Below the pieces are notes generated by a model, which worked only from the letters and a program-made list of their open reading frames with translations, made no database searches and was not told the DNA's origin. Positions 18,589-64,000 of a stretch of 64,000 nt of DNA are shown piece after piece. Every line of letters begins with the position of its first letter. Within the stretch, counting starts at the first letter, position 1. The translations under genes were made by a program, and so were the position numbers. The stretch comes from Haliclystus octoradiatus. Taxonomy: Eukaryota; Cnidaria; Staurozoa; Stauromedusae; Haliclystidae. The stretch lies in assembly GCA_916610825.1 (NCBI GenBank), contig OU744454.1, positions 2,958,501 to 3,022,500 of the forward strand. The letters are read 5' to 3'.

Positions 18589-49055
<30,467 letters not shown>

Positions 49056-50235
49056 CTGAATGCAAACAAATGCAGTATTAAACAAACATTGAACACATTC
49101 TGTGCAATATGGGTTATAATAAACACAAGTGCATTAAAGCGTTGTTACAATAATAACCTTTTATAAATGATATATTGGGTTATTCATGTATTTTCATGAT
49201 AGGAGTAATTGAGCAATTTTTTAGTATCATTGTCTGAAAATTGCAAATAAAAACAACTCCTAGTAAAGGGGAAAGAATTTTGCCTCCTCTTTGTTCCTAT
49301 TCTAAAATATCTACTTTTAAATTTACGCTATTTCCATTTTATGTAAGGCGGGGATTCACGGTTCCATTTTTGATGCAATCGACTTGAAACACATATCAAT
49401 GGATTCGTTATTAACCAGAGGCGTACATGGCCGGCTTCATTTCTTAAATAAATACATCGAAGTTGATAAAAACCAATGAAAACTGTTTCCATTTTCAACA
49501 ACAATGCTTTCTCAGACTGAAGCGCTAACTAAGCAGTTTCGCACTTGAATGACTTTCTATTGTCTCTGAGCAACAGTGCAGATCGATCTTTTGTTTCCTG
49601 TATGGTCATGCGTCAGAATGGAAATTATATAATCAATGTTTTTTGAAAATTATTTATAAACTGTTCGGATAGGAACGATATCACATTTGTAAACAAACCC
49701 ATGCTGGGGAAATTCTTATTTATTCAACATAATCTCACATGTCTACTGATAATGATAGCCGGCAATTTTACTGCAATGAAAAGACATTAATATAGAAAAC
49801 AATATACATGCAAACTTCCTCTTCATCATCGACAACAAATTATTAATATTATTATTATATATGAGCGATCACATATATAGATTTAACGAGGATTCAAATG
49901 CGATGAAACTCGATTGAACAGTTTGATGGGATCAGTGTATTTAACTAAAAAATGTAAACAATAATAAATAGTTTTTTCTTTCGGGAAAGTGGATTGAATC
50001 AATTATTGAATAATCAAATCGATGGATTTATAAATGTTGCCATGATGTGAGTGTTGTTTTACAATGTTTAGTGATGAAGCTAAATAAAATGCAGACAAAC
50101 CCGGGAGTTGTAATAATGGCCCTAAGATCAATTCAAATGTGAATATTGCTTCACTTTCGAGAGTCGGCGAGTCGTTTACACAGGACTATGTAATAATCTA
50201 CTTTTAAATAAAACCAGTAATCATGCTATTAAAGA

Positions 50236-50312
50236 TAGGACTGTTTCATGCGTATGAAGCTGAATTAGGGTCAAACTCGATTCACACGTATGAAGCTGAA
50301 TTAGGGTCAAAC
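50236..50312. repeat. Short tandem duplication
   Basis: The block CGTATGAAGCTGAATTAGGG with TCAAACTCGATTCACA occurs twice in tandem with a period of about 38 bases. Confidence 0.7.
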
Positions 50313-51232
50313 TCGATTCACACGGCGATGATATATTTCACATGGTGATGATGTGTTTTCACATGGCGATGATTTATACTGAATCAGTGTAGTGTTCAAG
50401 CAAAATCACCCCCTTCGTACTGTGGCAACGAAATGGCGTTATTTGGCACGTTGTTTAGTGTTTTTAAAAGTAGATAAAATTGGAAAAGTATTTAGCTAGC
50501 ATGATTATCGACACCACCTTGCCTATATGACTTGGACTATGTAGAAAGTACTGTTCATGGCTGAAAATAATTGATGAAATAAGGTGTAAAGAAGTAATAA
50601 ATAGTTTTCCCATTCTATATACTTATTCAAAAGTCACTTGAATCAAATGTTGAATAAACACGTTATGAGTAGTGAACAATTATTAGTATTTCTCCGGGCT
50701 ATGCCGGTGTTGTATAGGTGAAACACAATTTAATTTAGAAAAGCCCCCGACAAATTGTTACCTTGCAACTTGAACTTTATGACATTCAGTATGATACTCG
50801 GGTTTGTGATGTTTCTTGAGTTTTTTTAGGGGGCTATGGCTACTACTTCCACGTGCTTTGGGATAAACTAGATAGTACCAAATTTTGTAAATTTCTCAAT
50901 TAAACTGCGGCTTCGATCGGCTTTTCTACATAGATTTGTTCATGCATTTATTTTGAGCCAGTTAAACCAGATGATTCACAACTCAATATAAGCATGCATT
51001 TGCATGCAACTCGAAGTCTAGTCACTTAAATATACCCAAGGGATTTAGCTGGGAATAATAGGGGGAATGATAAGGGGTCAACCCTTATGGAACGCAGCAT
51101 AATGAACAACAAAAATAGCCTACTTCCTTTTAATGAACTGTTAAAGAATTGAAATACGAAAAGTTTCATAAAAAGCAAGCACATTTAACATTCATGGAAT
51201 TTTTGGAAATGTTCCTTCGTTCTCCTGAACTG

Positions 51233-51418
51233 CCCCCTGCGAAAAACAGTTCAGGAGTTCATGAACAGTTCATGAACAGTTCATGAGCGTTTAAATGGCT
51301 CCAATCTTCCTGAATTGTTCATGAACAGTTCGTGAACCCTGACAGACAGTTCATGAACAGTTCATGAAAATTTGGGGCCATTTGAGCTTCATGAACTCCT
51401 GAACTTTTTTCGCAGGGG
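51233..51418. mobile_element. TTCATGAA-family palindromic element, full form
   Basis: Left CCCCCTGCGAAAAACAGTTC, mirrored right CTGAACTTTTTTCGCAGGGG. The inner pair is TTTAAATGGCTCC and GGGGCCATTTGAG. About 186 bp. The smaller piece at 51535-51610 has the same units. Confidence 0.75.
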
Positions 51419-51820
51419 TGTTAATGACGTCATGAAATTTTATGATTTTTCCTTTAACTTCATAAAGTTGTCACAAATGAATGGAATTGTTTCAGAGGGC
51501 CCAAGCAAAAACTTCAACGTTACAGTTAATCCACGAACAGTTCATAAACATTAAATAGTCTTTTTCAATGAACCGCTCAGAAACAGTTCATGAACAGTTC
51601 ATTGAATGATGCCCTTTCACAATCATCAACTGTTTTAACCCGGGGGAAAGGAGGATGAAAAGTCACTTCACATTGCATGTACTTTTACAGATATTATGCT
51701 AACGTATTTGTATGTTCACTGTTGTACAGTAGTTGACTAATTAAGTGTGTTAACGTATGTGCTATGTGATCTTGGGATCAGGTAGGGATGTATGATTTGT
51801 TTGTTTAAATATGTCCCTTC

Positions 51821-52320
51821 NNNNNNNNNNNNNNNNNNNNNNNNNNNNNNNNNNNNNNNNNNNNNNNNNNNNNNNNNNNNNNNNNNNNNNNNNNNNNNNN
51901 NNNNNNNNNNNNNNNNNNNNNNNNNNNNNNNNNNNNNNNNNNNNNNNNNNNNNNNNNNNNNNNNNNNNNNNNNNNNNNNNNNNNNNNNNNNNNNNNNNNN
52001 NNNNNNNNNNNNNNNNNNNNNNNNNNNNNNNNNNNNNNNNNNNNNNNNNNNNNNNNNNNNNNNNNNNNNNNNNNNNNNNNNNNNNNNNNNNNNNNNNNNN
52101 NNNNNNNNNNNNNNNNNNNNNNNNNNNNNNNNNNNNNNNNNNNNNNNNNNNNNNNNNNNNNNNNNNNNNNNNNNNNNNNNNNNNNNNNNNNNNNNNNNNN
52201 NNNNNNNNNNNNNNNNNNNNNNNNNNNNNNNNNNNNNNNNNNNNNNNNNNNNNNNNNNNNNNNNNNNNNNNNNNNNNNNNNNNNNNNNNNNNNNNNNNNN
52301 NNNNNNNNNNNNNNNNNNNN
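51821..52320. other. Assembly gap, 500 N
   Basis: Exactly 500 unknown bases, which suggests a placeholder rather than a measured length. Open frames drawn through it are meaningless. It is the likeliest position of the missing NEK9-like kinase exons. Confidence 0.99.
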
Positions 52321-52419
52321 ATGGGCAACTGCGGAGAAAATAATAGGTTTTGAAGAAGTAAAAGTTAGTTTGCTCTACATTATGAAGCCCAACATAGGAG
52401 TTAAGGATTTTTTGTTGAG

Positions 52420-52580
52420 ACAAGGGATTCTAAAATCCTAGATTCCGGAAGGTTAGAGGAAATTCAGAAGAAAATTGATATTTTTAATGATTTATTAGTC
52501 AAAATCAACCAAAGAATACAGAAGAAAATGTTGAAATGCCTAGCTAGGATTCCAGAAGGCTGAACCTTTTGTCGGACACT
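52420..52580. repeat. Dispersed repeat R4, uninterrupted copy
   Basis: Matches the flanks of the interrupted copy at 35990-36490: AATCCTAGATTCCGGAAGGT, AGAAGAAAATGTTGAAATG and CTTTTGTCGGACACT. Confidence 0.6.
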
Positions 52581-53136
52581 AGCCTGCGTACCAGCCCCAA
52601 GGGCTTTCTGAAAATATAGGGTCTGTGAACTAATGTGTGATTTTCCACCCAACAAGATCCCATGAGTTTGGGATATAATGTATCGGTATGCACTACGTCA
52701 TATCATCATCAAGATGATTGTTCCGGCTGACAACTATATGACGTGTTTGACAAAGACCTGAGATTTTATGACAATCTATGTTTCGTGACAGTGTGAAGAG
52801 GGGTGTGAATAATTTACCAAATTTATATAGGTGTTCTTTCAGATGGGCTGAAAAGCCCACATGATTAGTTCACAGATCCCAGTTGCTACATGTCCCAGTT
52901 CAGGAGTTCATGAACAGTTCATGAATAGTTCATGAACGTTAAATGGCTCCTATTTTCCTGAACTGTTCATGAACTGTTCATAAACTGTTCATGAACAGTT
53001 CATGAACCCTCACAGACAGTTCATGAACAGTTCATGAACAGTTAATGAAAATTTGGGGCCATTTAACGTTCATGAACTCCTCAACTGTTCGCAGGGGTGG
53101 TTTTAGAAACAAACTTTGGGGCTGGTATGCAGGCTA
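52580..53136. mobile_element. TAGCCTGCGTACCAGCCCC-ended element with a nested TTCATGAA element
   Basis: The ends TAGCCTGCGTACCAGCCCCA and TGGGGCTGGTATGCAGGCTA are inverted. The inside contains a complete TTCATGAA-family element at about 52893-53097. The outer element has no coding frame. The ends resemble the smaller TAGCCTGC elements at 4444 and 9714. Confidence 0.7.
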
Positions 53137-53287
53137 GTTTAACACTGATCACAACTAGTGCACGCATCTCACACCATATTAGAAAAGGCTAGCCTAACGA
53201 TTGCAAAGGTCTCTGTCAATTTTATCCCTATTTAGGAACTAATGATCTAATAATTTTAAACATTCAGGTCTCCATTATTCCACATAC

Positions 53288-54765
53288 CTCAAACTGTTCC
53301 TGAATCTTGACAAAACAATTAATTCCTTGTTTTGTTTGAGCCAGAGGACAATAAAGGAAGTCAACACGGGCATTGTGAGAACTGTTGAGGTGACATATTA
53401 CCGATAATTCCCGTAGAAATGATAGTATCTTACTATTGTCATCCACTGAAGATCCTTGATTCTGAATAACAAAATGGATAAGACAGGTTTTTGAAAATAC
53501 GCACATGTAAAAAATAGGCTACATAACTGCAACTAAATGCAAACAGTTTTCCCAAGTTCAAGAGCTGCCCCTGCAAAAAACAGTTCAGGAGTTCATGAAC
53601 AGTTCATGAACAGTTCATTAACGTTAAATGGCTCCAATTTTCCTGAACTGTTCATGAACTCCTGAAGTGTTTTCGCAGGGGTGGTCCTGAACCGTTATAA
53701 TGAACCTTGTGAACTGTGCAAGAAAACTTTATAAACAGCTCATGAACTCTACATAGATCCATGAGCTGTGCATGGACACCTTCTCAAACAGCATGTTAAA
53801 TTACATGTTTTCCGTTGACTTTTCATATAGGCTAAAGGTGCCATATTCATATCGTATTTGGAAATACGATATAAAACGTTGGTCTACATTGAGAAATTAG
53901 TTAAAGTATTTAAATTTTGAGACGCTGCTTCGTTGCATACTTAAAGGGGAAAATCGACCGAAGGCTGCTACGAGCTCCTGGTCATGTTAAATGAAGGCAA
54001 CATCTTCAAAACCGCTAAGCTTGTTTCAACTTGAGCTCGTAGCAGCCGGTCCATTTCACTCTTCTAACAACTTCCTGTTACTTTATGTTATAAGGTCATC
54101 AACACTTATATTTGTATGCGTAAGTGTGTCTAGCTTGTAATATCAATCAGCGTCATATATGTTGTGTAAAGTCATAAAGACGGCCAGAAATCATGGGGAT
54201 GAGGAGTGTAACACCCAATCCCTCCAATAATAAATTTTGACAAATATTTCGGGCAATTCTGAGACGAACCATTGCAAAATTATGCAATTTTTTGATGGTA
54301 TTACAACTGGTGCTGAAGCTCCCAAATATGCAAATGTCATGTCTTTTTTTTAGGGTATCACTGACAAAATCCTCCCGGACTAAAGCATGTAGTTACCACC
54401 GTACTCATAAATATCACGTCCAGTAGAAATTCCTGTAAACAATTCATTAATCAAACAAAAAAGATTACCTCCTCTTTTTGAAATAAACAGATTGTTCCTG
54501 CATGGCCATGACAAATTATACCAATCTTTTCAATTTGAAAATGGTGTAGTTCTTCTTTGACAAAATTTAATATATCATCTGTCGTTGATTCTGAAGAGTA
54601 TTGTCTCGCGATGACATTAGGTAAAAGTGCTTTCTCGATAGACGAAAAACGTCTCACCTTCCAACATGCAAGAAGTAACATCTTTGAGGATTTGTTGTTT
54701 TTATTTTCAGAATGCACATTACTTAAAACGTTTATGGGTTCATTTTCTGTTAAATCTGAAATCAT
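53288..54765 (-). CDS. DUF4347-like domain, two exons; possible N-terminus of the NEK9-like protein
   Basis: Exons 54765-54469 (99 codons, Met start) and 53461-53288 (58 codons) join in phase 0; the second ends in phase 0 at a GT donor. The product has a 28-residue polar lead, then KMLLLACWKV, LNFVKEELHHFQIEKIGIIC-HGHAGTICLF, and DFLYCPLAQTKQGINCFVKI. The HG.AG...L block and the later LY.C-like strand with a Gly-Phe pair follow the layout of bacterial DUF4347 (ISHG.PG.L.L, then YGC...G..F). I infer homology from this pattern only. No stop is seen, so coding continues toward the gap and the kinase, in the same direction. It could be a separate gene. Confidence 0.6.
53571..53688. mobile_element. 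TTCATGAA-family element, short form
   Basis: Left CCCCTGCAAAAAACAGTTCA, right CTCCTGAAGTGTTTTCGCAG-GGG. It lies in the intron between the two DUF4347-like exons. A degenerate tail of the same type follows to about 53770. Confidence 0.7.
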
Positions 54766-56797
54766 TTTGAAGAGGAAAAGAAGCTGATAGGCCTACAAAT
54801 ATTATTGTTATCCTACATCACAATTTACTTTAGTTGAGTTTTGCAGCAACAGCATTTGTTCGTATAATGTGTTTTTATGTCCAATCGATTTTCATTTCTC
54901 TGTTTACGACACACGCACACGCTGAGGTTTGTGATAAACTCTTCTCCTTTGCTAACATAATAGTAATAATACGTCGTTGATACTTTGTACAAGAAGAAGA
55001 AAGCCACAATATAGGCTACCGCTACATAATAGAATAAATATTGACAAACTTACTATACAAGAACTAAAAATATTAAAAATCATAAACAGAAATGCACTTT
55101 ATTGGAGGTGCCTCGTGTTAAAATTGTTTAATTAAAGAGGGAGTGCTATCGAAACACAAGAAAAACAAATAATATAAAATTATTGGATACGCTTGAAGAA
55201 AAATAAAAGGTTTGAAATTCTATCAATTGAAAAACTACAGCGAAATATTTCTCTTAGTGGTTTAGTATTTAATTTCAAGATGAACACAAGTTTAATTTTG
55301 TCTTATTTCTTTTCTGCTGGCATCTTTACCCCCCTTGCATAAACAATTGTTATATAGAATGACTCTGTAAAGGCTAGACTTGGTTGCCATAGTTTCGTAA
55401 CCCCAAACAAAAAACATCAATACACGGAGAGGACTCAAAGAGAATTGCAAATTCCGATTCCGATATATGTCACGGTGTTTCTATTCGTCATTTCAAACTT
55501 GAAGGCGAATACAGGCAAACCTTAGGCTCCCACTTACGTACTACTGTCCTTGATTACATGTGATATATAAAGTGTAATGATTGAATTTAAACTATGCAAG
55601 TAAATACCATATATAATTATACTAAACAGTAGTTTGATCTTCATTATTAAACTTATTATTGAAGTGCGTTTACAAAAATGTGATATGACTTGTTAATTTG
55701 AATAATTATGAATAATAATACATGCTCAACGAGATCTATATGCCAGAGCCATGCGTAAGAATCATACGTAGGTTCGACGGACCATGTAAACTCATAAAAG
55801 CGTGTCAATTTAACGAGCACCTCATCAATGAAATATTACTTGGAATTACTTACAATGGAATTTTGAAATGTTTGATCTTGAATATATTTGGTCTGAAAGT
55901 GATGCAAAATTGTTCGGATTGCGATTGTATCGCTGGTAGAGAAAAATATCGAATGTAATTCAACCAGAAATATAGTGCCAGGCCCAATTCGTCAAAACAT
56001 CATTGGTCATCTTAAATAAATCAGGTGTAGAATTGCTTTGCATAAATCAAAAATTTTCGGTTGATTAAGTTGTACCTTGACATATTTGCTTGGATTCTAC
56101 CGGGTGCTTTTTTGATAGCAGAAGACTCAATGGCACTAAAATATTGGACTACTATGCTCTAACTGTTAGTAACTTAATTGCAACAATAAACTGTTCCAAA
56201 CGTATATTCTTTGACAGGATCATTTCCGAGGACTTATCTCCCTAAACAAACCCTACCCCCGTTCGACCTTGTCATGCAGCTAGTTTGGCTGTGTTCCCAC
56301 TATAGCTCTTGTAAAGTATGATAGGTAACATAACAGAATAACCATGGGTCAAAAATAACTACAATAATTGAATCACACGCAAAGTATATATCTGTAAATA
56401 ATCTATGATATAATTATTTATTGATTCCGCATAAAAGTAAACTTTCCTATCAGATCTAAATTCTTCATCCAGCGAGAATATCCATAACGCCTTCGTTGAA
56501 ACGATTGGTTAATGCCATATACTATATAGTATAGAATCATTTTCTGCTTGATTTGTTGCCATTATTGAATCTAAATAATAAGCGATACGAAGTACAACCT
56601 CGCGTTTATGGAAACTTAAACTGCATCAAAATGGACTCATTGCAGCTATATATTAAGAATCTGAGACAAACGTCCGAATAAATTGGACTTTCTACAACAT
56701 TGATTTGGTGTCTCAGCTATCGTGAAAGTTTTGCTGCCAGCATGTCCCACAGTAATAAAATTTCAATATTGGAAAGGTATTAAGGATCCATCATTCT
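54766..56797. other. Intergenic region, no gene seen
   Basis: Lies between the stop of the PAN/fibrinogen-like gene and the Met of the DUF4347-like exon. It is AT-rich, with no credible exon and no clear core promoter. The small frames at 54825-55007 and 55722-55958 have no recognisable content. Confidence 0.5.
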
Positions 56798-59700
56798 TTA
56801 AAATTCACAATACAACGGACCAAGAGTATGATAGCCGTATTTACCCATTCCACTGACCTCCCAAAATGTCAATCTAGCAACAGGCAATGCAATTTTGTTT
56901 GAAAAATACCCTCTTTGATTCCTCAACGAAGTACCAGCCAAATCACATTCACAATTTTCTTCATCTTTATTTCGATCACAACAACAACTTTCTGTGCCGC
57001 TACAAAAACACATGTTACCAAATAAGTCATCATTGAGAGTAGTTGGAAAATAGCCATATTCTTTAGAGTCAAACCCTCTCCATGTTGCCTTATCACCTTT
57101 AATAACACTATCATAACATTCAAGATAAAGCTCTTGATAACAATTTTGTGATACAGATTTCAACCATGTTATTTCTTCATTATTCAATTCGTAAATCAAA
57201 TTGGTTTGGTAAGGAGGATCGCCATAGTATCTAGTACGGGTCATGGCATTGTGTTCAACTTTGACAACTGCTTTACCTTCTAAACGTAGACATTCCAATT
57301 GTAAATTACTTGTAGTACCACTGGGTAATACAGTATTAATTTGAATTACAGATGAGTTGACGTTTGAATCCAATAAGGCTGATGTACAAGAGTCTAAGCA
57401 AAAAACATCCGCATTACAATTACAAACTAGAGAGAGAGCAACATTAAAAACAAATTATAAAATTAAAATGTGAGTGGCATTTATGCTGAAATGAGATGAA
57501 AACGACGTCATTCGGTCGAGAATTAGTTCATATGACAGCTAATAATTTTGATATAAAGCACACGTATGCTTCATGTCTATATTCTATGCTTAAAATCACC
57601 CGTAAGTCAACTCCGTATGTATGGAGACATTGATCGCGTCACTACGTCACCTTGCCAATTGCCCGTATTAAGAAAAAGTGGCGGTTTACTGCTGAGCCTT
57701 TTCTGATAAATGAATCTGTATAGTATTGTACCTGAAATTTAATAAATAACAATACCATCTAATTACCATATTGGTTTGAGTCCATGAGTTTGACTCCTTG
57801 AGTTGCTTCAAGCATATGGATTATCGATGTTTCCTCGAAGTTGTACATAATATTGTGATAGCTAGAATTACGTTCTCGTTAGTGTTTGCAGGAACAGTCA
57901 TATATTCATGATGATGATGATGATCATCATCATCATCATCATCATCCCGCTCTATTGTTATTATGCCTTTTGTTTAAAAAGGTGACTCCGACAAGGACAG
58001 CTTTGGTGTAGAATGATCATTCTTCTATCAAGGACGGATGATCCCCCTACCCGAAAGTGATTCTCTATTGTCTTCATGTCCTGTCGCCCTGTAGTACGCA
58101 CTGATCTATAAATAGAATATTTATATAGATCGGTGGTAGTAGCCAGCACAATTTTTTGTGGAACCAAGATCCTTTCCCGTATATTTCGCATGTACTGCGC
58201 TTGCGTGAAAAGCTATTCCTCCCATTGACACAAATCGTATTCCAGGTTGTAAACAAAAAATATTTTCTTTGTCGCTTAAGATCTTCCTTCTTGTAAATAG
58301 GGCCTTACATTGGGTGGGTTTTAGAAAAATATTGCATACCTGCAGGTGGTGCGACTGATGTTGTTTGTGATGTTGCTGTAGCTGCTGCAACCATAGGCAC
58401 TGATGATATCATTGTCGCTGTTGTTTGTATTGATGAGGATATTGTTGTTGATAATATTGGCACTGAGCTTGCTAGGATAGGTGTGGCTGCTGTTGACATT
58501 GTCTGTGATACTGTTGGGTTATTTGTTACTGGCGTGCCTGAAAAGAAATACATTCAAGTTTATATACAGTCAAACCTGTTATAACGATCACATCTATAAA
58601 GCGGCTACCTGTCTATAGTGGTCACTCTTGCAATGTCTATAATAGTATTTTCTATTGAATCAACCTGCGTATAAAGGCCACCTAGGTGTCTATAATGGTC
58701 AATTTATCTACCTCTCGTAGCTGGTTGTTATATGCAGGTTTCACTGTATTAGATATATGGGGAGACGAAAAGTCTGTCTGCAAAAGGAGGCGTTTACTCT
58801 GGTTTAATTTCTGAGGCTGCTATATTCGTTAAATTATGACTAGTGTGAATTACGAAAGGGAGGTGGTTAAATCGTGTTTGTTAAGCAGTTATTACGTACG
58901 CAGTTGCTAATGGGGAATCAGAATATGATATTACGTACCTGTACCTATTTCTGTACCATCCTAATGAACAAACAAAATCATAATCACATATTAATCAATG
59001 CGGGCAATAAATAAATAAAATAAACACCTGATGCCTCTATGGGGATGTGGATACTGTCATATAGGTACTATATACGGTGATATATATGTGCCATTTTTAC
59101 AGAATACTGTTTTCGCATCATGCTGTCAAATATTTGGATATCAAATTCTCAAATTTGGCTTCTTGCTTCGAAATTTCAGGTTTGATCCGGTATACGTCCT
59201 CCCGTATAAAGATGTAATTATGCAGATTGTTTCGCGATCTATAAGTGGAGCGGATGATGGACCTTTTGATATTATTTCAGGTTTTTGTCAAGTAAATTGT
59301 TATCGATAGAATAGGTAATATTTTGATTATATTTCATCATGTAGATCAACGATTTATCGCTGACCTACATGATGAAATAAAGTGTTATCAGAGAATATTT
59401 TCTCATATTTTTCTGTAAGACAGAGATCACGCATCAATTCGTAATTAATAAGCTACAGACGGTACATGGCAGTTAAACAGACAAGTTATTTCATTGATAA
59501 GAAGCTTTGTCTGAGTTTTTAAATGTTAGTATCCCGGGTAGGGTAACTCCACTAGGGCGGCTATACGGAGACGTGCCACTTATTTTGGGTCCATATTCCA
59601 GCTGAGAAATAACTTTTTGGGTATGAGATTTCAAATTTTGGAGCTTTTGGGTATCCTATTTTTGACTTTTTCAAGAATTTTTGAAAAAATTTGCATCATT

Positions 59701-62272
59701 TTTTTGTGTTTACCTAAAATTAATCAACCTGTTAGAACTTTTTGGGTAGCATCAACAAAATTTTTGGAACCTTTTGGGTACCTTACCTTTTTCCAAAGAG
59801 CTTCCTCCCCGTCCCTGAAGAGCTGGAGTTACCCCCCGGGGTTATTATCTTATGTAGACTGGCGTTGAATAATGCCAAAATTTTAAAGCAAAAGCCAAAA
59901 ACACTCAAGAGGTTGACAGCAAATTAAACCAACGACAACTTCATGTCAATAATAATAATTTTTTTTTTTTGGTTTATAGAATAATTTTTATTTGAAAATT
60001 CCATATAACGTAACAAAAATTACCGCGTACAACTAATTTGTTTTTCCGTTATGCTGTAGATTGTAAGAGCAAAGAAGGATATAAAGATCGACCACTGCAG
60101 ATGAGAAGAACCTTATCGTTTCTTGCTTCAGTTCTAACTCGGCTTAATATAGAGTCAATCATCATTTTCTTTATGCATGATCGTGCCCATGATTGCAAGT
60201 CTCATTTACCCTTTGGATGGCCATACTGATTCGTTTTAAGAGAAACTGAGATGCTTGAGGATCATTTGTTGATATTTTTAATCTTTTCCAAGAGAGTCCA
60301 GAAATATTGACGATGAGGGGTCTATTGGTCCTCGTAATATCTCAATAATAAGAACAACTGGCTGATTTATGTGCTCAGTTGCTAAGCAGTTGAAATGATG
60401 AAATGTTTTCTCATTTGCCTCTTCTGTGGCCTCTTCTGCAGCTGCTGCAGACCTTGTTGATGTTTTTGGGAGATGGGAAGGGACAGGGTGTCAACGCAGC
60501 TGAAATTTTAGACTAAGAATTTCTCTGTGGACAAAGAAATTTGGGTTAAGCCATCTGGTCTAGGTCTTCTGCCATCAGATATGTGAAGTTCTATTGGTTC
60601 GTAGATGGATGGGATATTAGCGGACGATAAAGCTCTTTTCAAAAGATCGTTAACAGCTTCATGACGTGCAAAGCGACAAGCTGCTTTGCTACATGATAAG
60701 TGTTCATTTTGCGTCCTGTTTGGCACCACGTACAGACACAACACGTGGCTGACATTTGGTGGCTCTAAGGTGAAGGGCAATGGCTTTGTTTAGATAAAAT
60801 CATATCTTATCTTATTAGAATATAAAAACAGAATTTCGTAAATTATTCATAGAAAGATGTTTCCATTTTTTAAATGTTAAAAAATATTCTTGCCTTATAC
60901 CGTGAAAATGGTTTACCATTACCAAAATTATGCATGCAAGAGCACGTCCACAGATCTAAAATGGCAGGTTTTCCGAGCAACTTGAAATTTACATCCATAT
61001 AAAAACACGGGCGGGTGAGAAAAGTCAACTTACGGACTTGCCGACTCTGTAAACTTTAGTTTTTCGATCGAATTAAGGCAAGATTCACGAATGCTCTGCC
61101 TTGCTTAGCCTTTATATGGGATGACGAAAATCTTTGCTGTGTGCTGTGAACTTCGATCGAACTCATGGGCATCAAAATATCTCAAAAATGTTAACAAGTT
61201 GATAAATCTATCACGAAAGAGCAGAGTTAATAATTGATCAAAAGCAGTGATGACGTCGGAAAAATCGCCTCTTTCCCTTCAGCCTCCATTCTTTTTTGCA
61301 ACAACGCAGAGCTTCTCAAACAATAATTTTAATTTGGACCATGTTTGGATTGTTTTGGTCAAATCAGTCTGTTTTGAACAACTGTTTTTATGATAAACAT
61401 ATGGGAGATTCAGATCTATAATGTAATAAATAAGCATTTTATTCTAGATTATTTGCAATTACAGTGGAACCCGCTTATGTGCAATTCGGATAAGTGAAAT
61501 TCCCGCTTATCTGCAACCTGGCTTTGAAACCCGCTAAATAATTTTCTGGCCAAGTCCTATGTAAACGATTTCGGATAACTGCAAATTCGGATAAATGCAA
61601 TGAAAATCGTTGGCAATTTTGACTTGCACTTGAGCGGGTTACACTGTATTGCAAAATAAATTCTACTCTAGAAAAGTCACGTACGATCAAAAATGAAAGA
61701 AAAGAGGCAGAGTGTGTAGAGTTAAAACAGATAAATGAGGAAACTGGGATTTTGTTTTCATTCCAATAATTCCAAAATAATCCGTTGGAAATATGATAAA
61801 TTCGTCGAAGGACGATTCCAATCCATGTTTCTAATCTATACAGCTGTTGCACAGAGCATCACACAAATCCAAATTTAAGTTTGGAATATAGTCTACTTAC
61901 ATTATTATTCGTCAATGAAACATTGTTAATTTTCAAAGCCATTATCCACTTTTCTCCATCGAAAGCATCTGGAGGAGCACCTTCAATTTCACTTGCTTCA
62001 AAAAGATAACAATTTGATTCAAAATTATTGAAATTCATTCCAATAACATTACATCTACTCAAATTAACACAATAATGCATGCATTGTGCACGTGTTGCTG
62101 CTCTTCGATTTCCAATTTCTTCAAAACTAAAACCATTGGATATTGACTGCGAAGACAAGGGAAGAAATATACGTCCATTTTTATTACATTGCAATGATAG
62201 TGTTGATGTGAATATATGTATATATATGGCAACCCATGTTAATATACCCATTTTTGCATTAAATTTATTCAT
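56798..62272 (-). CDS. Secreted protein: signal peptide, PAN/apple, Ser/Thr linker, CNTNAP-like fibrinogen-related domain
   Basis: Four exons in frame: 62272-61901, 58960-58939 (22 bases), 58537-58340, 57426-56798; 406 residues. Residues 1-29 form a signal peptide (hydrophobic WVAIYIHIFTSTLSL); an in-frame Met at residue 8 is an alternative start. Residues about 55-95 carry the PAN/apple spacing (QCMHYCVNLSRCN...NFESNCYLFE). The micro-exon adds DGTEIGT, and the next exon is a Ser/Thr/Ala/Val stretch likely O-glycosylated. The last exon is Cys-rich, with NCYQELYLECYDS, WRGFDSKEYGYFP, CFCSG...CCCDRN and LPVARLTFWEVS then LGPLYCEF. That order is the fibrinogen-related domain of contactin-associated proteins. 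No transmembrane segment follows, so secretion is expected. A role in adhesion or recognition is inferred from the domains. Confidence 0.85.
57909..57950. repeat. Inverted ATG/CAT microsatellite
   Basis: (ATG)n switches directly to (ATC)n through GATGATC, forming a self-complementary tract of about 40 bases. Confidence 0.85.
58567..58746 (+). mobile_element. Tigger/pogo-like MITE, 180 bp, complete
   Basis: CAGTCAAACCTGTTATAACG at the left, TTATATGCAGGTTTCACTG at the right, TA on both sides. It lies just upstream, in gene order, of the 58340-58537 exon. Same family as 37591-37769. Confidence 0.75.
59030..59200. repeat. Dispersed repeat family R3, copy 3
   Basis: Carries GTGCCATTTTTACAGAATAC, TCGCATCATGCTGTCAAATA and TTCTCAAATTTGGC in the same order as 32390-32700. 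Confidence 0.55.
59331..59378. repeat. Small near-perfect hairpin, 48 bases
   Basis: The arm ATTTCATCATGTAGATCAAC-GAT pairs with ATCGCTGACCTACATGATGA-AAT, with two mismatches and a two-base loop. Confidence 0.75.
59536..59841. repeat. TTGGGTA-rich inverted-end repeat, uninterrupted copy
   Basis: Starts near GGGTAACTCCACTAGGGCGG and ends CTGGAGTTACCCCCCGGGG. It is the reverse orientation of 3195-3768 and shows that locus before the solo LTR inserted. The interior repeats TTTTGGGTA about every 30-50 bases. Confidence 0.7.
60225..60780 (-). pseudogene. Retroelement polyprotein C-terminal remnant
   Basis: Minus-strand frames read HLSCSKAACRFARHEAVNDL, then LKRALSSANIPSIYEP, and SDGRRP-RPDGLT, followed after a frame break by AAAAEEATEEANEKTFHHFN and SSSIFLDSLGKRLKIS. 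This is the layout of a C-terminal segment common in animal retroelement polyproteins (C..H...RH...ND...RAL..A..P...EP.GL...DG.RPDG, then FLD.LG.RL). It is decayed, and lies in the long intron of the PAN/fibrinogen-like gene. Confidence 0.7.
61462..61646. mobile_element. Tigger/pogo-like MITE of a second family, 185 bp
   Basis: The ends CAGTGGAACCCGCTTA and GAGCGGGTTACACTG are inverted with TA on both sides. The inside repeats GCTTAT.TGCAA and CGGATAA words. It lies about 250 bases downstream, in gene order, of the first exon of the PAN/fibrinogen-like gene. Confidence 0.75.
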
Positions 62273-64000
62273 ACAGTAAAATATACAATCGGTAAGACAA
62301 AATATATAGTCTATAATTGTATTCTATATATTGCAATTCAGTCCTATGAAACAAAAGACGTCTCCAGGAAGTCTTCACGACGTCGTACTTCGGTCTTATT
62401 TAGGTACCGTGCGAACTATATGTTGTATTTGCTTGAATGAAAGCTACTTTAATAGGTGATTATAACATAACATTATAATTCTATTATACACGTTAATATT
62501 GACTTATATAGCTCATGCCCAGACTTTTTTATGTTGTTTTTCAAATCGTTATTGGACGCATCAAGATTGTGACATGAGCCGGATGGTTGCAATGCTTCAA
62601 AAACAGTGCGTATATATTTTGCAGAAATGTGAAAACAGTGAAATCAAACCTGCAGTGGTTCACTGATACTAATATCTATTAATGATATGGGGACTGATAA
62701 TGCTTAAAAAACATCAGAAAAGATAAAAATGACGGATACGAAATTGAAACTGATGTTAAACATACACCTTAATCATCTTTATATACGCGTGTATGATATT
62801 TAATCAGATATATATTATTTTGATCAACGCATATTAAATATGCGTTTTATGGACTTCTCTATAAGCAGCTGGAGTTAGAGATTATAAGCCTATTTACAAT
62901 AATTATGTGTATATAGTACTAATAACATTACCTTCTGCAGCTTAATTGTAAAATCTCAATATTTTTGTGCTAGCCAACATTGCCGGACATCATATATTAA
63001 TCAGCAAATACGACATGAATGTTTCATTAAATATTGTGTAACAGCATATTTAATTATTTACATAATAATAATTATATTAAATTAGCTGGTGCCATCTTTA
63101 CACATCCAGCTGTTCATTAGACTTGTCCAAAAAAATGAAAGTCTGAAAGTTGGATTGAATTCTTGATTTTATTGTTCTAGGGGTAAGAAAACCATAATTT
63201 CAATATTTGAGTTTAAAAAAACATTATGAAATGGGCGGTCAATTCTCCTCTAAATCAATACACAAAGTCAATGGGAAAAACGCTCAAAAAATAAAAAATA
63301 AAAACATAATTTAATATCAGGAAGGTATTTTTCAATCATTTTTTTATGTCTATGGAGGTAACAATCTCAGAAATATTACCGTATGTGGCAATTAAAAGTC
63401 TATTGGATGAGAACCTATATTGAAAATTTGTGTTTCAAAGTGATGAATTTGAATGTATGGCTTCCATTGTGATTTTGACAGACTTCGGCAAGATTTCAGT
63501 TCTCTAATGAATATCATTTCAAATATTAAACAATCAAATTTGTCTTTGCAACGGCGTAGAATAGAAAATTGATCATTGATTTCCTATAGGGCGAGACCGT
63601 CTGCATTTTTCTAATGTTGACCAACAGCAGAAGATTGTCTTTGAAGCTCTTAAACTCGTTGATGTAGATGCCGAAACCGATAAAGTTTGCCTCACACAAA
63701 CCACACTTAACTGCTCGTTTACTGTCTACATTGCTACTGTATTACATTTGTTTGAAATTTGTGATTGAATTAACAGTCGTTCTCTATGGGAAAATAGTAC
63801 TGTGACATTACCAGTTAACCAATCAGAATGTAGATCATCAAAATAGTACCCATTGGTTTCGACTAAATGGAAATACATAGAAATATTTCTTTGTTTTTAG
63901 TTTAATTGTGCATTTTCTATATGAAATGCTTCCAAGTTTTTTCAAATGAAAAATTGAAGTAGGTAAGATTCTCCTTTATCGACAACAAAATGCTGATTAT
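62273..64000. other. Upstream flank of the PAN/fibrinogen-like gene
   Basis: AT-rich, with no confident exon. Should hold the promoter of the minus-strand gene. The only coding-like trace is at 63465-63590. Confidence 0.5.
63465..63590 (-). pseudogene. Possible GIY-YIG/retroelement tail remnant
   Basis: The minus strand gives INDQFSILRRCKDKFDCLIF then EMIFIRELKS. It resembles the KFDCL.YEM.FI..L.P tail found after GIY-YIG nuclease segments of Penelope-like and related retroelements. The match stops after about 30 residues. Confidence 0.4.

Follow-up and report, generated by a model that had tools for sequence, protein, structure and literature searches.

DUF4347 (Pfam PF14252) is a domain family barely covered in the open-access literature: the excerpts retrieved concern a table row on a snail protein, a type VI secretion system effector, and tables of algal and of Burkholderia proteins, and none of these excerpts mentions a NEK kinase. 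A bacterial member of solved structure, Tce1 (PA0256; PDB 9qpe), was only recently published as a putative cysteine protease. A structural model of a bacterial DUF4347 domain resembles caspase-type peptidases in its fold, and a caspase-like (clan CD) fold is probable for the family. Several of the eight bacterial plasmid copies examined lie within very long coding sequences, of up to about 48.7 kb. ECT2L carries F-box and RhoGEF domains, and a segment of it (PDB 11xu chain A1, residues 290-427) is independently placed in DUF4347 by Pfam (E 1.1e-12). NEK8 and NEK9 are kinases that act at cilia and in mitosis. Zebrafish ect2l is described as a putative guanine nucleotide exchange factor, and not as a kinase; motile cilia are reported to require it and were affected by its knock-down (PMC4199137); in the axoneme structure literature, a mention of ECT2L was not found among the matches listed. 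Here, we analyse a window of 64,000 nucleotides from Haliclystus octoradiatus (contig OU744454.1, C11:2958501-3022500 of a 262 Mb assembly in 33 contigs), in which two exons predicted to encode a divergent DUF4347-type domain lie on the minus strand upstream of a NEK9-type kinase gene, with an assembly gap between them. The best explanation overall, to which we give a probability of about 0.48, is that these exons are the 5' part of the kinase gene and encode a regulatory or docking module.

The original prediction of two in-frame exons ending in an open phase-0 donor was borne out. Specifically, on the minus strand, exon 1 (54765-54469, 297 bp) runs from a proposed ATG at 54765 to GAG/GTAATC, and exon 2 (53461-53288, 174 bp) from TTCAG/AAT to GAG/GTATGT. 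The splice sites are canonical and the junction is in phase 0, giving 157 codons up to an open phase-0 donor; were it left unused, a stop would follow seven codons further in frame. The proposed ATG is overlapped by a good pyrimidine tract with TTTCAG, so exon 1 may be an internal exon starting at this acceptor. The product contains the motifs HG.AG and LYC..A....G, the latter within the LYCPLA....GI of exon 2. When the whole genome was searched, the 157-residue product matched only its own two exons, and no close relatives were found in the prokaryote, viral or plasmid collections. On sequence grounds, we take both exons to be genuine and to code for a DUF4347-type domain that has diverged.

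The 157-residue product was searched against Pfam with hmmscan, up to E 10, and the sole family returned was DUF4347 (E 0.0013, 18.9 bits), residues 62-150 of the query matching positions 30-111 of 164 in the profile. Since the match stops at position 111, the domain is incomplete in the visible sequence; the C-terminal TGA.VAAS and G..W.LE segment of DUF4347 is absent from it and may lie within the gap. As the score falls below the Pfam gathering cut-off of 24.6 bits, the product is classed as a divergent relative and not as a member of DUF4347. Conserved columns were assessed on an alignment of 39 rows, comprising the window product, 36 of the 80 bacterial genome loci and both viral loci. 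Here, G87, C137, A140 and G145 are invariant and H86 is at least 90% conserved, and His86 and Cys137 of the product align with the conserved His/Cys pair of bacterial DUF4347. The His/Cys pair of clan CD, or caspase-like, cysteine peptidases is likewise present by alignment.

Profile searches were then scored on all 2027 open reading frames (ORFs) of the window and on 100 windows randomised by a first-order Markov model, from which the microsatellite and the N run were omitted. The bacterial profile, of 60 sequences, drew on 52 of the 80 genome loci and on 8 plasmid loci selected among the 30 matches listed. With it, the spliced product obtained 12.6 bits; exon 1 by itself obtained 8.8 bits, and both outscored every other ORF. 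The value of exon 1 was matched by 4 of the 100 random windows, so the bacterial sequences alone are not decisive for homology, and a chance resemblance with no DUF4347 relationship has to be weighed, to which the Pfam score below the gathering cut-off also points, as does phmmer with the product alone, which found no DUF4347 chain in PDB up to E 10. Two further results weigh against homology: exon 2 alone reaches 1.3 bits with the bacterial profile, which is noise level, and an ORF of 113 residues is ordinary, with 3.5 per random window. A caution applies to ECT2L, which was first noticed through a profile that contained the window sequence.

A profile made from 38 sequences (the 36 genome and two viral loci) plus the ECT2L segment, with the window left out, argues against chance: of the 2027 ORFs, exon 1 takes first place with 9.4 bits and exon 2 third place with 5.0 bits; none of the random windows reached 9.4 bits, the best of them scoring 8.3. 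In addition, when the window product was added to the 38 sequences, the score of ECT2L went up from 16.6 bits to 29.2, whereas 40 shuffled window sequences brought it to 18.0 at most, and this too makes an accidental resemblance very improbable. The reciprocal addition of ECT2L raised the window product from 10.0 to 18.7 bits, with at most 11.1 for 40 ECT2L shuffles. Searched against PDB up to E 10, the 38-sequence profile listed Tce1 and not ECT2L, which was detected at 16.6 bits without speed filters; with the window product included, ECT2L came top at E 4.2e-5. The homology to DUF4347, initially called from pattern, thus draws support from the Pfam match, the conserved columns, the ECT2L-containing profile and the shuffle controls, and we consider it established with high probability. 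Genome-wide searches with PF14252 found nothing and with the ECT2L segment gave no match, and both negatives carry little weight because the PF14252 search also missed the window's own exons.

Comparison of the window copy with its described relatives shows the term 'bacterial DUF4347' to be too restrictive, since the ECT2L segment is also DUF4347 and shares extra signal with the window copy. Judging from these profile scores, the window copy lies closer to the ECT2L type than one would conclude from bacterial profiles. The two have the IGI, VDF, PL and GI positions in common, whereas ECT2L has, in the alignment, an Asp at the position of His86 and no Cys at that of Cys137. Bacterial DUF4347 shares with the window copy the His/Cys motifs and the order of secondary structure, at 12-22% identity over 38 aligned bacterial and viral sequences; the window copy differs in its score below the gathering cut-off and in being encoded by spliced exons in a eukaryotic genome. 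A structure comparison of the window-product model gave RecA-like matches, taken as a generic alpha/beta arrangement, with caspases not among the 50 matches listed, an absence that does not count against a caspase-like fold.

Beyond the gap, the minus strand carries two kinase-tail exons, both in phase 0: GTYTPIKETFSVEFRTL (49005..49055), which matches the Pkinase profile, and VRDMLEKEPSSRPSAQELLQYRLPE (48214..48288), which matches its end. Together they cover positions 227-260 of 263 (E 2.1e-4, 21.2 bits, below the cut-off of 31.7), so that 34 of 263 positions are visible. RCC1 repeats follow the kinase tail from 38.7 to 33.1 kb, with a repeat exon at 38508..38663, repeats at 36526..36852 and repeats with the following linker at 33089..33544 (all minus strand, ORF limits), and an RCC1-like segment matching NEK9 at 35713..35820 (minus). 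This order, kinase tail and then RCC1 repeats, is that of the NEK9 and NEK8 kinases; our search of the open-access literature found no account of NEK9 domain architecture with RCC1 in invertebrates. The window RCC1 segment is 38% identical (E 3.6e-14) to the genome's own NEK9 on contig C7, its best match elsewhere in the genome, versus 34% (E 5.0e-7) to an RCC1 exon at C2:11647501, which sits about 10 kb from NEK8-like kinase exons. That this strand carries a NEK9-type gene, as proposed, is supported by the RCC1 repeats, the kinase tail and the closer RCC1 similarity to NEK9. Taken alone, the kinase tail is not NEK-specific: its best relatives in PDB are STE20-type kinases (STK10, E 0.0052; NEK1, E 0.33).

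Further downstream, a C-terminal ORF (29798..30280, minus) contains WLQNEL, which weakly resembles (E 0.22) the WLQHEL of the genome's own NEK9, and a CaaX pattern fits the ends of two ORFs, with CSVM near 18589 and with CLMM near 29180; these features are consistent with the outline previously proposed and do not prove it. The NEK9-like gene on C7 is separate and consists of a single open frame of 851 residues (L093 2015-4567, plus strand), which may have arisen by retroposition from a NEK9 gene, and the window kinase gene would hence be an additional NEK9-type gene. Compared with NEK9 and NEK8 kinases, it is dispersed over a large number of exons and is preceded by DUF4347-like ones, and the greater part of its kinase domain is out of sight. 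No further kinase exons were found on the minus strand in 46000-51820 or 52321-64000 by a scan that also missed the 49055-49005 exon, and tblastn found no kinase N-lobe in the window. In the interval that separates the kinase tail from the gap, we observed a weak Pfam match to AAA-ATPase_like at 50461-50634 (minus; E 0.006, 16.8 bits, below the cut-off of 26.1).

The gap itself (51821-52320) is exactly 500 N, presumably a placeholder. At its edge lies a high-copy repeat of about 104 bp (51709-51812), 91-97% identical to at least 39 other places (best 40 of 124 candidates scored). Fourteen of the 39 other places listed form seven same-strand pairs; the two copies of a pair are separated by 0.75-1.27 kb, and in six pairs by 1.1-1.3 kb. 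The paired copies suggest an element with terminal direct repeats and, given this spacing, we infer that the assembly was probably interrupted by an element that exceeds the N run in length. The other flank holds a dispersed repeat (about 52579-52880), 79-83% identical to at least 38 places (best 40 of 3496 candidates scored). Hidden in the gap, or absent, are about 50 DUF4347 positions and 226 kinase-profile positions. No gap filler from elsewhere appeared, as none of the matches listed for a NEK9 probe was on contigs beyond C11. Other repeats in the window comprise a palindromic 11-base unit, AGTTCATGAAC, in short dispersed arrays (36101-36924, 39480-40706, 45924-46072, 47946-48872, 51257-51605, 52906-53049 and 53591-53659), a 20-base version of which gives 77 matches with at most two mismatches and none in 100 shuffles; a tandem array at 46382-47626 (73-base unit, 17 copies, 96% matches); and a perfect ATA microsatellite at 44037-45809 (591 copies, 1.8 kb), which yields long meaningless poly-Ile/Asn/Tyr/Leu ORFs.

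Since the assembled sequence lacks the end of the DUF4347 domain and the greater part of the kinase, it does not by itself decide whether the exons continue through the gap into the kinase, and we regard this continuation as evenly balanced. The common strand, the open donor, the incomplete domain and the lack of an AATAAA for about 790 bp past the end of exon 2 all point to it. Room for two neighbouring genes is left by the ECT2L relationship, the repeat-rich gap, a TATAAA at 52827, between exon 2 and the gap, and the AATAAA at 52496, the nearest one. The DUF4347-like gene, whether an independent gene, an ECT2L remnant or an ECT2L paralogue, would then end in or before the gap and the kinase would have a start of its own. 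This arrangement, a serious alternative that we rate as the less probable one, would account for a domain that shares more with ECT2L, not described as a kinase, than bacterial profiles explain, and the gap, given the high-copy repeat at its edge, may be large enough to contain the end of one gene and the promoter of the next. However, no F-box or RhoGEF family was found in the minus-strand frames of 45901-51820, 52321-56250 and 54793-64000 or in the next 9.9 kb upstream, a weak negative because one of those scans also missed the DUF4347 and kinase-tail exons, and the RhoGEF matches listed on the window's contig are more than 1 Mb away.

The ECT2L gene itself was also considered as the occupant of this locus and was rejected, as no F-box or RhoGEF was seen in the stretches of the strand just named and no match upstream of the RhoGEF loci was accepted as a second DUF4347. 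For the latter check, 51 RhoGEF matches were reduced to 27 loci, of which 20 were scanned over 9.9 kb and 7 over 4.9 kb, with low sensitivity for short exons. With the window's own exons excepted, the best match in a 9.9-kb scan had E 2.2 with the full profile; a two-sequence window/ECT2L profile gave at best E 0.025 (26 residues, L116, on the strand opposite the RhoGEF match), and a further RhoGEF-locus scan E 0.6, none of which was accepted.

The visibility of only 34 kinase-profile positions, together with repeat-rich introns and a NEK9 with an open frame elsewhere in the genome, could also be expected of a broken gene, in which decay affects either the DUF4347 exons or these and the kinase together, and a large part of the kinase is missing from the genome and not concealed by the gap. 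We think this improbable, as all four exons with borders examined (two DUF4347, two kinase-tail) are open with canonical splice sites, and the motif residues are retained.

Regarding the upstream neighbourhood, an ORF at 56798-57454 (minus) ends in GYHTLGPLYCEF, an end that presumably resembles fibrinogen-like or contactin-associated domains; a whole-frame Pfam scan of this ORF gave no match. The minus strand of the next 10 kb upstream of the window (L099) contains a reverse transcriptase fragment (RVT_1, E 3.2e-8) and a match to SduA_N (E 1.9e-6, 28.4 bits, just above the cut-off of 27).

In conclusion, if the divergent DUF4347-type exons are the 5' part of the NEK9-type kinase gene, one minus-strand gene spanning the gap would encode, in order, the DUF4347-like domain, the kinase, the RCC1 repeats and the C-terminal tail, and the DUF4347-like domain would serve the kinase, from its N-terminus, as a module for docking or regulation. 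The sequence itself shows the domain, its strand, the order of the parts and the open donor; continuity across the gap and the role of the domain are inferred. Such a role is the simplest and most likely reading by analogy with ECT2L, whose degenerate copy presumably acts in this way. Because both members of the presumed catalytic pair, His and Cys, are kept, protease activity is possible and could, for example, clip the linker to the kinase; we rate a proteolytically active domain as less likely than an inactive one. That one animal protein combines a NEK9-type kinase with an N-terminal caspase-fold DUF4347-type domain keeping His and Cys, to which the ECT2L copy would be a degenerate relative, is a tentative proposal that we put somewhat short of even odds. 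Whether next to a NEK9-type kinase gene or within it, a eukaryotic DUF4347 copy that retains this pair would qualify as a candidate protease-like regulatory module on such a kinase, and as an active-looking counterpart to the degenerate DUF4347 of ECT2L.
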